From positions 1-37,337 of the forward strand of contig JAHYJA010000012.1 of NCBI GenBank assembly GCA_019429325.1: DNA of 37,337 nt. Direction: 5' to 3'. The DNA comes from Bacteroidales bacterium (lineage in GTDB: Bacteria; Bacteroidota; Bacteroidia; Bacteroidales; VadinHA17). The position numbers and the translations under genes were made by a program. The notes below the pieces were generated by a model. That model was not told where the DNA came from. It worked only from the letters and a program-made list of their open reading frames with translations, and did not search any database. This document shows, piece by piece, positions 29,983 through 34,811 of this stretch. Numbering within the stretch: the stretch's first letter is position 1; every line of letters starts with the position of its first letter.

Positions 29983-31826
29983 ATGAAAAGATCTATTCTG
30001 ACTACACTTTTTCTCTGCGCATATATTGCTTTAAGCGCACAGGGATATCCTTTTCAGAATACGAGTCTCCCGGAGAATGAGAGAATAAGGAATCTGATCT
30101 CGCTGATGACAATTGATGAGAAGATAAGCTGCCTCTCAACCCGCTTCACCGTTCCGAGGCTTGGAATTTACGGCACACGCACTATTGAAGGACTGCATGG
30201 ACTCGCTTACAGCGGTACTGCCAACTGGGCAGTAAAAGGCCCCAAGGCTTCACCAACAACCACTTTCCCGCAGGCCTACGGACTTGCTCAGACCTGGGAT
30301 CCGGAACTGCTCCGGAGAATAGCTGACTGGCAGGCAACTGAGGCCCGTTATCTTGCACAGAGCAAACGATTCGGAACAGGGGGCCTTATTGTCTTTGCGC
30401 CGAATGCGGACCTCGGCCGCGATATCAGGTGGGGCAGGACGGAAGAGTGTTTCGGGGAGGATGCCTTCCTCAATTCAGTTATGGTAACGGCCTGGGTAAA
30501 AGGACTTCAGGGAGATCACCCTCTTTACTGGAAGACAGCTTCGCTGATGAAACACTTTCTTGCAAACAGCAACGAGAACAACAGGACCTATAACAGCTCC
30601 GATTTCGACGACAGGCTATTCAGGGAGTATTATTCATATCCATTCTGGAAAGGGGTGGTGGATGGGGGATCTCAATGCTTTATGGCTGCCTACAACAAAT
30701 ACAACGGAATACCCTGCACAGTCCATCCTGTTCTGCGCAGTGTCACAATGAATGAGTGGGGCCTCAGGGGAATCATTTGTACTGACGGCGGAGCCTATCG
30801 TCAATTGCTGACTACACATGATTATTATCCATCACTGGATATTGCTGCTGCAGAGTGTTTTAAAGCAGGCATAACGGTTTTCCTTGATAATTACAGGGCT
30901 CCGCTTCAGGAGGCTCTCCAGAGCGGCCTGATTTCAATGAAAGAAATTGACGAGGCAATTTACGGGAACCTGAGGGTGCTCCTGAAACTGGGTCTTATGG
31001 ATGATTCACCGAATAATCCTTATTCGAACATTGGTATTTCCGACACAATAGCTCCCTGGACAAAACCGGAGGCCTTTGAACTGGTGCGAGAAGCGACGGG
31101 CGTGAGGATGTTGACCGCCAGGCAATAACACTCGAGCAGGAGGACCTTGTCAGACTTGTAATGAAAGCCAATCCAAACACTATAATGGTAGTTGTTTCAA
31201 GTTTTCCGTATGCCATTAACTGGACCGGAGAGAATGTCCCGGCAATACTTCATGTGAGCCAGTCAAGCCAGGAACTGGGCAATGCAGTCGCCGATGTGAT
31301 ATTTGGCAGGGTGAGTCCGTCGGGCCGCCTCGTGCAGACATGGATAACTTCAATAGATCAGCTTCCGCCAATACTCGATTATAACATTAGGAACGGAAGG
31401 ACCTACATGTATGATAAAAATGAACCACTTTTCCCCTTTGGTCACGGGCTTACATATACCAGTTTTTCTTATTCTGACTTGAAATTGTCGCGCAAATCAG
31501 TTCAGGCAAATGATATCGTTGAAATTACATTTAATGTCAGTAATACCGGTAATTACGACAGCGATGAGGTTGCCCAGCTCTATGTCAGTTTTCCGGATTC
31601 AAAGGAGGAAAGGCCCATAAAGGAATTAAAAGGATTTTCACGGGTAATGGTCAGGAAAGGAGAGTCCGAAAGAGTGACCATTTATCTGAAGGCAAATGAT
31701 CTGATGTACTGGGATGACATTAAACATAGATGGACGCTTGAACCCGGAAGGGTCAGTTTCTTTGTCGGATCCTCTTCTGTTGATAAAAGGCTTGAGGGAG
31801 AGATTACCGTACGAGGCCGGAGATAA
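29983..31826 (+). pseudogene. GH3 beta-glucosidase-like gene, internally deleted and frameshifted
   Basis: ORF 29983..31128 carries the N-terminal GH3 barrel (GGLIVFAPNADLGRDIRWGRTEECFGED, GIICTDGGAY). It breaks at LVREATG. The other frame resumes at EDVDRQAITLEQEDLVRLVMKANPNTIMVVVSSFPYAINW and continues to the C-terminal FnIII-like domain (31161..31826). Confidence 0.82.
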
Positions 31827-31833
31827 GAAGCAT

Positions 31834-32078
31834 AGGGCGAGGGGCAGGGAGCGAAGAGCAAGACAGGGCGAGGGTGCGATGGACCGATGGAGCGAAAGGA
31901 CGGGTCATTCAGTGGTCATTCGATAGTCATTCAATAGTTTAACAATGAATGACAGCGAAGCAAATGACGTCACGCTTGCGGGACAAATGACAGCCGACCC
32001 GTCCGCCGGAGCACTGGCGAAGGTGGAAGGCCAAATGACACTATCTTCCGTCTTCCGTCTTCGGTCTTCGGTCTTTTT
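31834..32078. repeat. Composite repeat island: G-rich AGGGCGAGGGGC motif, 3x 11-bp TCATTC(A/G)(G/A)T(G/A)G, CGCCGGAG..GGCGAAGG motif, 5x 7-bp TCTTCCG/TCTTCGG
   Basis: Direct reading: 31834-31844, 31905-31937, about 32000-32030 and 32044-32078. Confidence 0.8.
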
Positions 32079-32082
32079 TAAC

Positions 32083-32113
32083 TTGTTTATCAGCAGAATA
32101 TTCACTATCTTTA
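32083..32113 (+). promoter_or_regulatory. Candidate Bacteroidota promoter for the AbiEii-like operon
   Basis: TTG at 32083-32085, 20-nt spacer, TATCTTTA (7/8 match to TAnnTTTG) at 32106-32113; 22 nt upstream of the first ORF. Confidence 0.4.
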
Positions 32114-32135
32114 AGAGGATTTCAGGTCATAGTTA

Positions 32136-32405
32136 ATGAACAGCCCCGAATTAAAAGCATTTATACGCAAACACAGTTCTCTTTTCTGGTATATCCCGGA
32201 AGATAAGAAGGAGGACCTGAGTCCCGATATAGTTGTAGAGTTTATTTTTAATTACGGGACACTGGATGATGTTAAGACTTTAATCAAAATATTGGGAGTT
32301 GAGAATACAGCAAAAATTTTTTTTGCGGCCAGGGGGAGGAAAAAATTAAACTATTATCCTGAGATTTATAATTACTTCTCTCTCTATTTTAAAAGATATG
32401 CATAA
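32136..32405 (+). CDS. Small protein, putative antitoxin partner of the AbiEii-like protein (DUF6922-like)
   Basis: 89 aa: SSLFWYIPEDKKEDLSPDIVVEFIFNYGTLDDVKTLIKILGVENTAKIFFAARGRKKLNYYPEIYNYFSLYFKRYA; overlaps the next gene by 8 nt. Confidence 0.6.
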   Translation: MNSPELKAFIRKHSSLFWYIPEDKKEDLSPDIVVEFIFNYGTLDDVKTLIKILGVENTAKIFFAARGRKKLNYYPEIYNYFSLYFKRYA

Positions 32406-33015
32406 AGAGATCTTCACTGAAAATCAGCTTAAACTTTTTCCGCTGGTTAAAGCTTTTAAGCGGGAATTCTATCTTGTTGGAGGCACTGCAATAGCTTTAT
32501 ATCTGGGACACAGAAGGTCGATAGATTTCGATTTATTTAAAAGCTCTTCCCTTCATCAAAAAAGAATTATTTCAAAAATATCAGCGTCTCATTTTAAATA
32601 TAAGGTAACCAGAAGAGTTACGGAACAACTTAATGTGACTATAAATGATGTCTCATTTACTTTCTTTGAGTACCCATATGTAATTGATGCTAAAAACAAT
32701 TTTGAGGACGTAATGCGTTTGCCTTCCCTAATTGACCTTGCCGCTATGAAGGCATACGCCCTTGGACGAAGATCGAAATGGAAAGATTATGTCGACTTTT
32801 ATTTTCTTTTAAAAAATAATTTCACCATTAACCAGATTTCTGACCGTGCTGTTGAAATTTACGACCAGATGTTCTCACAAAAGCTATTCAGAGCGCAGTT
32901 AAGTTTCTTTAAGGATATAAATTATGATGAACCTGTTGAATGCCTTGAAGAAGCTCCTTCCAGAACTGAAATCCAAAGATTTCTTATCGACAGGGCTATC
33001 GATATCGGGATCTGA
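32398..33015 (+). CDS. Nucleotidyltransferase, AbiEii/AbiGii toxin family
   Basis: 205 aa: FYLVGGTAIALYLGHRRSIDFDLF (GG..A..L..GHR.S.D.D nucleotidyltransferase signature), DLAAMKAYALGRRSKWKDYVDFYFLLK. Confidence 0.85.
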   Translation: MHKEIFTENQLKLFPLVKAFKREFYLVGGTAIALYLGHRRSIDFDLFKSSSLHQKRIISKISASHFKYKVTRRVTEQLNVTINDVSFTFFEYPYVIDAKNNFEDVMRLPSLIDLAAMKAYALGRRSKWKDYVDFYFLLKNNFTINQISDRAVEIYDQMFSQKLFRAQLSFFKDINYDEPVECLEEAPSRTEIQRFLIDRAIDIGI

Positions 33016-33060
33016 CAAGTTACTTAACCGATGCTATCTGAGATTAATCTGGAAGTAAAC

Positions 33061-34406
33061 TTATTCACGCTTTATAAGACATACCCAGTCCTTTCCGTCG
33101 GATGCCGGAGGATTTCCTGTCGGTCTGAAGCCTCCGCCATTAACATTCGTCAGGCTTCCCTTTACCAGATCACCTGCTGTACGGGGATTGTACCACTCCA
33201 CGGTATATTTACCCTGCGGCAGTCTGATTACAGTCCCTCTGCCTTCAGGAAGATAAATGGAATATACCTCTCCTTCTTTTGCCAGACAATAGCTGTTATT
33301 ATCTCCAATGATCTCGTTGGCATTTCTCATTTCAGTGAAAGGCAGGTGTTTGTGAAAGAAATCAAGTGCAAACCTGGTCTGGTCCCATAATATGTCGCGA
33401 CTGCGCCAGTCCTCGCAACTCAGGTCCGAGTGAGGGTAATTATACCCGAAATACCATTCCACCCCTGCTCCCCCGGCCATAAGATTGCCCCAAAGCACCT
33501 TGTGCCTAATGGTGTCGTGACCAGGATCAAACTCATCTGGCATTGCCCCTTTCCAGTGCTGGCCAATCTCATCGGAACAAACAACCCATTTGTGATTTGC
33601 TTTGGCTGATTCGTTCAGCCAGTATAAGGCATCGCCGTGCACCTCGTTGATATTCCCGCATTGCACGGACGGGCCTTCGACGTTTCTGAATCCCAGGTAT
33701 TCCGTCATGTCTTTCAGCCTCTGTTGGGGAGCTGCATGTGTATGAATAACGATGAAATTATTATAAGGGTCTGTTTCCCTGAGATAATCAGCCATAAGTT
33801 TCGTGTCCCTGTAAGTCTGCCCATAAGGCGACCATTCAGTAGGGTGATGCTCTTCTCCGAGATTCCAGGTTATTCCCAGATGATGTGCAAACCTGGCAAC
33901 AAGCTCCCTCAGATACAGTTTCCGTTGTACATCGAGGTAGCCGCAATCGAGAAGACATTCATTTTCTGTCTCCTGCAGGACAAAATGTTTCATGATGCCC
34001 AGCCTGTCGGCGTGTTCAAATACTATTTTCCACTGGTCGAGTTTACTGCAATCGAAGCGATATCTTTCATTGCGGTCGGTGTAGGGCCATACATCCTCGC
34101 CATCTCCCAGAATGTTCATCGTAAGGAAATAGAAGCTGTTCATTCCTTATTTCCATCGGCGGCAAAATAGCCAGGTACAACATATTTTTCCGTACCGTTT
34201 GAGAATTCAGCATCGAGCCTGTAATTGGTGAATGGATTCACCGTATCATATTCGCTGGCAAAGGGGCCCGCAAAAGTGAGGGTTAAAGTATGCCATGCCT
34301 TCATCTCGCCATCGATGGCGAGTTCTGAGGTCCTTGTACATCTGAGTGCAAGCGGTACTGTAAGCAGTAATAAAATAGAGCTTAGAAATAAATTTGATTT
34401 TCTCAT
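33061..34406 (-). pseudogene. DUF5060/DUF4038-type hydrolase, internally deleted and split
   Basis: ORF 34140..34406 has the lipoprotein signal and start of DUF5060 (FSNGTEKYVVPGYFAADGN). ORF 33061..34143 has the C-terminal catalytic part (MNSFYFLTMNILGDGEDVWPYTDRNERYRFDCSKLDQWKIVFEHADRLGI...WVCLIKRE). The domain connecting them is absent. Stop and start overlap as ATGA. Confidence 0.75.
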
Positions 34407-34441
34407 TTGATATGATTTAAGTCTGGTGGGTCACGGGAAGG

Positions 34442-34579
34442 CTATTTTCCGGGGCTGTGTTCACATTCCTGCATAAACCAACAGAGCCAGCCTTGCAGGT
34501 TAAAGCCCCACGATCCCCAGCACAGCATGGTTACTATGCAGAGCAATACCGCCAGCGAATAACTTTGTGGTATGAACAT
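34442..34579 (-). pseudogene. Truncated N-terminus of a GRP/RhaT-like sugar transporter
   Basis: 46-codon reading MFIPQSYSLAVLLCIVTMLCWGSWG|FNLQGWLCWFMQECEHSPGK*. The first 25 residues resemble the start of DMT-type sugar permeases (ITMLCWGSWxN); the rest does not. Confidence 0.4.
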
Positions 34580-34664
34580 TTTCCGTTAAGATTTTAATAT
34601 GACAGCTAAAGTTATGAAAAAACAATAAATAAGGATGATATTATAAATTATTCGTAAAATATAT

Positions 34665-34672
34665 TAATTTTG
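34665..34672 (+). promoter_or_regulatory. Candidate -7 element (TAATTTTG) of the proBA promoter
   Basis: Exact match to Bacteroidota TAnnTTTG, about 140 nt upstream of proB; no clear -33 TTG seen. Confidence 0.45.
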
Positions 34673-34714
34673 CGCCGGATTTCGTTGGAAATAGTTATTA
34701 TTCTTATAAATTGA

Positions 34715-34800
34715 AACCTTCATCTGCTAATTTACATAACAAGATGATTAAAATCATGAAGGTTCCATTCGAGCAACTTAATATTCAATTCTATATCTAA
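34715..34800 (+). other. proB leader: inverted repeat AACCTTCAT/ATGAAGGTT overlapping an 18-codon ORF (34744-34800, MIKIMKVPFEQLNIQFYI)
   Basis: Direct reading; arms 34715-34723 and 34756-34764; ORF stop 11 nt before proB ATG. Confidence 0.4.
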
Positions 34801-34811
34801 GCTATTTTCGA

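Follow-up and report, generated by a model that had tools for sequence, protein, structure and literature searches.

A two-gene AbiEii-type module of a Bacteroidales bacterium with a small predicted antitoxin remotely related to DUF6922

Nucleotidyltransferase toxins of the AbiEii/DUF1814 family are widespread. In AbiE systems (type IV) the toxin and the antitoxin do not interact, and the antitoxin AbiEi carries an N-terminal winged helix-turn-helix (wHTH). To our knowledge, the neutralisation of AbiEii/DUF1814 toxins has been worked out for AbiEi- and MenA-type partners alone. In M. tuberculosis, MenA1 already provides an example of a small partner other than AbiEi (PMC10435456, PMC11375011): this antitoxin lacks a wHTH and is paired, in MenAT1 (Rv0078B-Rv0078A), with a DUF1814 toxin of about 200 aa. 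MenA1 (7.4 kDa) acts via one long helix, T39 of MenT1 and S78 of MenT3 are the residues phosphorylated when the antitoxin is present, and antitoxin-triggered auto-phosphorylation has been proposed as possibly general (PMC11375011).

We analysed a stretch of 37,337 nucleotides from contig JAHYJA010000012.1 of a Bacteroidales bacterium (the window), in which a small gene, ORF1, is followed by an AbiEii-type nucleotidyltransferase gene, ORF2. With a probability of roughly 75 %, we read this pair as a chromosomal two-gene toxin-antitoxin module resembling MenAT1, whose toxin would be neutralised directly by an antitoxin of the DUF6922 superfamily. The features of the locus are:

31827 to 34811, no strand assigned: interval between the GH3 gene and proB, with the module and a broken glycoside-hydrolase-like gene inside
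32136 to 32405, forward strand: ORF1, small partner gene and predicted antitoxin (89 aa, ATG start), predicted all-helical, remote DUF6922 homologue
32184 to 32189, forward strand: invariant F17-W18 of the FWY motif of ORF1, common to DUF6922 (FWD)
32398 to 32405, forward strand: 8-nt overlap ATGCATAA, with the ORF2 start codon within the end of ORF1
32398 to 33015, forward strand: ORF2, AbiEii/DUF1814 nucleotidyltransferase gene and predicted toxin (205 aa, ATG start)
32518 to 32532, forward strand: S41-I-D43-F-D45 of ORF2, metal-binding DxD with its Ser, invariant in 52/52 homologues
32659 to 32661, forward strand: T88 of ORF2, third-carboxylate position, T in 52/52
32749 to 32751, forward strand: K118 of ORF2, lysine of AbiEii motif III, 52/52
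32782 to 32796, forward strand: K129-D130-Y-V-D133 of ORF2, AbiEii motif IV (+DxxD), 52/52

Both ORFs and their 8-nt overlap, as claimed in a preliminary description of the locus, are present; the span described there starts at 32083 and so includes 53 nt of 5' flank before ORF1. ORF1 contains FWYIPEDKKEDLS...FIFNYG and ORF2 contains GGTAIALYLGHRRSIDFDLF. To see how the pair is kept elsewhere we collected relatives from one genome per species, with ORF2 at 53-68 % identity, resulting in 80 loci, nearly all in Bacteroidota. In 80/80 loci the toxin is immediately preceded by an ORF1 relative: 78 are separate small genes detected by phmmer (the one at L012 being cut by the contig end), one is fused to the toxin (L063) and one was found by tblastn at 60 % identity (L033). 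At L063 (3755-4615) the small gene and the toxin are fused in frame, apparently via a short deletion at the junction; the sampled relatives from the same genus are unfused, making the fusion a single case that we left out of the evidence.

Both starts could be assigned at 78 loci, and the two genes overlap at 77 of them. The overlap measures 8 nt at 40 loci and up to 38 nt elsewhere and its length is always 2 mod 3, which points to one ancestral overlapping pair. The overlap suggests coupled translation, and with ORF1 placed first, the overlapping frames would let antitoxin synthesis run ahead of that of the toxin. Median dN/dS among relatives is 0.087 for ORF1 and 0.077 for ORF2, corresponding to strong purifying selection; together with the presence of both ORFs in 80 loci, this means that neither arose by chance. 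For both genes the conservation exceeds that of many toxin-antitoxin pairs, a point against the toxin-antitoxin reading. The evolutionary distances of ORF1 and ORF2 correlate (r=0.79, with 0/1000 permutations as high), as expected of partners and equally of any linked genes. Rfam reveals no RNA family in 31700-33300, so nothing points to a known RNA antitoxin. The Bacteroidota -7 motif TANNTTTG occurs at most 150 nt upstream of the small gene at 51/78 loci (5.6 in shuffled sequences); it is absent within 150 nt upstream of the window's own ORF1.

We also surveyed the pairing from each gene separately, across 295 genomes of Bacteroidia. With the ORF1 profile there were 9 strong matches, one per bacterial family, and 9/9 adjoin this toxin, so that the claim of the preliminary description that the genes form a unit, for which it proposed a co-occurrence survey, holds. 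The outcome that it named as counting against the claim, a small gene found mostly apart from the nucleotidyltransferase, is not what the genomes show. In one of these genomes (G131) the small gene lies beside a C-terminal remnant of the toxin alone. Conversely, the toxin profile gave 8 subfamily matches, 8/8 of which have an ORF1. A broken toxin next to an intact small gene was found at three loci (L096, L169 and L170), and no intact toxin of the subfamily lacking ORF1 was seen among the surveyed loci and genomes. This asymmetric decay, in which the toxin is broken and the small gene kept, the reverse being unseen, argues for the toxin-antitoxin reading. The locus thus shows the genomic signature of a toxin-antitoxin module, namely linkage, patchy distribution and loss of the toxin first. 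At L095 (G124) a second partial copy, composed of an antitoxin C-terminus and a toxin N-terminus, lies about 1 kb from the pair, which suggests duplication and decay.

ORF2 belongs to the AbiEii nucleotidyltransferase family, as the preliminary description had claimed: it matches Pfam AbiEii/DUF1814 (PF08843) with 56.2 bits (cut-off 22.5, E=6e-15), and the 'GHR.S.DFDLF' signature corresponds to the motif-II region (S-x-D-x-D). The PADLOC match to AbiEii is weak. The four published AbiEii motifs (PMC3985639), that is GG, S-x-D-x-D, K and +DxxD, do not vary among 52 homologues except in one case at G29; the ORF2 residues are G28, S41-I-D43-F-D45, K118 and K129-D130-Y-V-D133. The AlphaFold2 model (pLDDT 94) has the predicted Pol-beta/MenT fold, and Foldseek places JHP933 (4ok0, E 4.8e-7), MenT4 and MenT1 (8an5/8an4) first, followed by ANT(2'')-Ia and more weakly by CCA-adding enzymes. 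Single-sequence and profile searches of PDB sequences for MenT or MenA homologues returned nothing significant.

Two active-site positions bear on how far the comparison with MenT can be taken. S41, present in 52/52 homologues, aligns by motif with MenT1 T39 and MenT3 S78 and thus provides a Ser at the phospho-acceptor position of MenT. The second position is that of the third carboxylate, which is E113 in JHP933 of H. pylori (PMC4125220). JHP933 is the best fold match of the ORF2 model and differs from it here, because ORF2 and its homologues (52/52) have Thr88; the other AbiEii-type proteins in the alignment have Asp, except for one with Ser. With Thr88 in place of the third catalytic carboxylate, the activity of ORF2 may differ from that of MenT.

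ORF1 has no confident family assignment, the sole hint in Pfam being DUF6922 (PF21956) with 14.1 bits, under the 27-bit cut-off. In a profile-profile comparison, 52 ORF1 proteins against 15 DUF6922 proteins match with 96.5 % probability (E=7e-10, 58 columns), compared to at most 2.1 % in 40 column shuffles and 0.1 % for a reversed profile. As the match exceeds these controls, ORF1 is, to judge from the profiles, a remote and divergent homologue of DUF6922; its profile also matches DUF6922 copies at E<=1e-5 in three genomes (G103, G127 and G158). The AlphaFold2 model consists of six helices (pLDDT 96.5) with no fold match in the PDB or among viral models, and with a helical protein of this size a match may have been missed. 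ORF1 has no HEPN match in Pfam and no fold match, and hence does not resemble the partner in a HEPN/MNT (type VII) system. The preliminary description had proposed that the partner is a non-AbiEi protein and a distinct type of antitoxin. The first proposal stands, since the 89-aa protein is all-helical in prediction and matches neither AbiEi nor a wHTH in Pfam, NCBIfam or PADLOC; the second stands in that ORF1 is not AbiEi and fails in that it is not an isolated type, given its divergent kinship to DUF6922.

These results weigh on whether the pair could be a classical type IV AbiE system in which ORF1, a reduced and non-binding AbiEi, would mainly repress the operon or antagonise the effect of the toxin. 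The toxin family, the antitoxin-toxin gene order and the AbiEii motifs I-IV are shared with the AbiEi-AbiEii pairs of Streptococcus and Lactococcus. However, AbiEi is a larger wHTH protein and ORF1 is not, as the database searches, the all-helical model and the homology to DUF6922 indicate. Furthermore, a true AbiEi (265 aa) does occur in the same class at other AbiEii loci (L162), and an operator search upstream of ORF1 revealed no clear palindrome, only short repeats of doubtful meaning. Lacking AbiEi, the pair falls outside the AbiE systems, and the reduced-AbiEi explanation is very improbable.

DUF6922 itself accompanies AbiEii-type genes in Bacteroidia. Of the 94 DUF6922 copies in the 295 genomes, at least 78 immediately precede an AbiEii-type gene on the same strand; at most 16 of 94 have no AbiEii neighbour among the matches listed, a point against the toxin-antitoxin reading. 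The source genome holds two further DUF6922-AbiEii pairs (contigs C247 and C30). These pairs share with our locus the gene order, the toxin superfamily and a homologous partner. They differ in the C-terminus of the small protein (GRKKLNYYPEIYNFFSL in ORF1 compared to FRCY...Q..NP..WPY in DUF6922) and in the toxin, since most aligned DUF6922-linked toxins keep the third carboxylate that the ORF2 branch lacks. An N-terminal HTH_3 or HTH_3-like domain precedes DUF6922 at nine loci (L132-L134, L136, L137, L141, L150, L153 and L157), above the Pfam cut-off at L133 and L134, and these genes are upstream of AbiEii where checked. A DNA-binding part joined to a neutralising part is the usual layout of an antitoxin, and this arrangement suggests, on domain order, that DUF6922 is the neutralising domain. 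One branch of AbiEii toxins thus seems to have a DUF6922-like family as its usual partner. Our literature search, limited to papers outside subscription journals and preprints, found no paper on DUF6922 or PF21956, nor on DUF6922-AbiEii pairs (PF21956 with PF08843). The novelty most likely resides in the partner, a largely undescribed type of antitoxin, while the toxin is ordinary. Contig C4 of the source genome (L004) carries a fourth AbiEii-type gene. The partner encoded upstream of it (L004 1140-1475, about 110 aa) is a different one and may represent one more type of antitoxin.

By analogy we infer that the pair works like MenAT1 with an unrelated antitoxin. Common to both are the S/T-x-D-x-D, K and motif-IV residues of the toxin and the small wHTH-free partner; ORF1 differs in its predicted six-helix domain and in having no match to MenA1 in PDB sequence and fold searches, with 8an5 among the entries. 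ORF2 would be an AbiEii/MenT-type toxin that adds nucleotides to an acceptor RNA, by analogy with MenT at tRNA 3' ends, and in this way blocks translation. We lean slightly towards the view that it stops growth by nucleotidyl transfer, the likely acceptors being those 3' ends. MenT1 itself is not known to be toxic in E. coli. Provided that the pair is a toxin-antitoxin module, ORF1 would probably neutralise ORF2 by binding it directly, near the active site, a prediction drawn from ORF1 having no recognisable DNA-binding domain. Such binding might in addition induce auto-phosphorylation of Ser41, as MenA1 does on T39 of MenT1, an idea we put forward tentatively. The pair, with its unrelated antitoxin and a Ser that is invariant at the acceptor position, would offer a direct test of the proposal that auto-phosphorylation is general. 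If the reading is true, DUF6922 would gain a function, and a large unnamed partner family of Bacteroidota would represent a further way to control the same enzyme. A stronger version is somewhat unlikely: in it, DUF6922 and the ORF1 branch would together be a superfamily of antitoxins not described before, which would have a new fold made of helices and serve only AbiEii-type enzymes across Bacteroidota, and the Thr88 toxin would catalyse a chemically different transfer or act on another acceptor.

The distribution of the module is patchy even within the genus of the window, where the subfamily toxin is found in 4/25 examined species, while proB, the housekeeping gene downstream of the module, was found in 22/25 of the same species. 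The spacing between GH3 and proB is 228-300 bp in four congeners compared to 2,989 bp in the window, corresponding either to a gain in the window's lineage or to a loss in the others. Nucleotide-sugar genes, AAA_14 ATPases and other toxin-antitoxin-like genes are commoner among the immediate neighbours of the relatives than among the controls (118 genes from 60 random windows in six unmatched genomes), which makes this a lead and not a result.

A rival reading takes ORF2 as a non-toxic nucleotidyltransferase, such as a modifying enzyme of surface-polysaccharide loci, and ORF1 as the subunit that binds its substrate or regulates it. The high conservation and the lost third carboxylate would fit, as would the presence of GDP-mannose-dehydratase-type (7/125) and UDP-sugar-dehydrogenase (6/125) genes next to relatives, neither nucleotide-sugar family being among the 25 commonest of the 118 control neighbours. 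However, AbiEii, HEPN and nucleotidyltransferase genes occur in these neighbourhoods too, and the genes beside the module in the window are not of the polysaccharide-synthesis kind. The patchiness within the genus, the asymmetric decay and the toxin-antitoxin toxins among the best fold matches of ORF2 also argue against the enzyme explanation, which we consider improbable. The flanks at L008-L087 often carry polysaccharide-type genes (GDP-mannose dehydratase, UDP-sugar dehydrogenase, UpxY/NusG-like and Wzz-like) and small toxin-antitoxin-like genes (AbiEii, HEPN/MNT and AAA_14), and may be an insertion hot spot.

Alternatively, infection may trigger the pair to act against phages (abortive infection), by whatever biochemistry, a role compatible with the toxin-antitoxin reading and raised in the preliminary description. 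Some AbiE systems confer phage resistance (PMC3985639) and the patchy distribution would be in line with such a role. Against it, the neighbours of relatives include no confident defence gene, only candidate PADLOC classes (PDC-S01, PDC-M05A and others), which are too weak a basis for claiming defence. No relative of the subfamily toxin was found in viral contigs, and phages and plasmids carry distant AbiEii alone, at about 30 % identity. As the analysis yielded no evidence of defence, we consider this role unlikely.

Genes flanking the module are damaged on either side. Upstream, the GH3 beta-glucosidase gene (29983-31826, forward strand) is split into 29983-31128 and 31161-31826, and about 300 bp are missing near 31095 compared to the congeners L255, L259, L260 and L262, corresponding to a broken gene or an assembly error. 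Downstream, the glycoside-hydrolase-like gene beside the module (33061-34406, reverse strand) also looks split, into 34140-34406 and 33061-34143.
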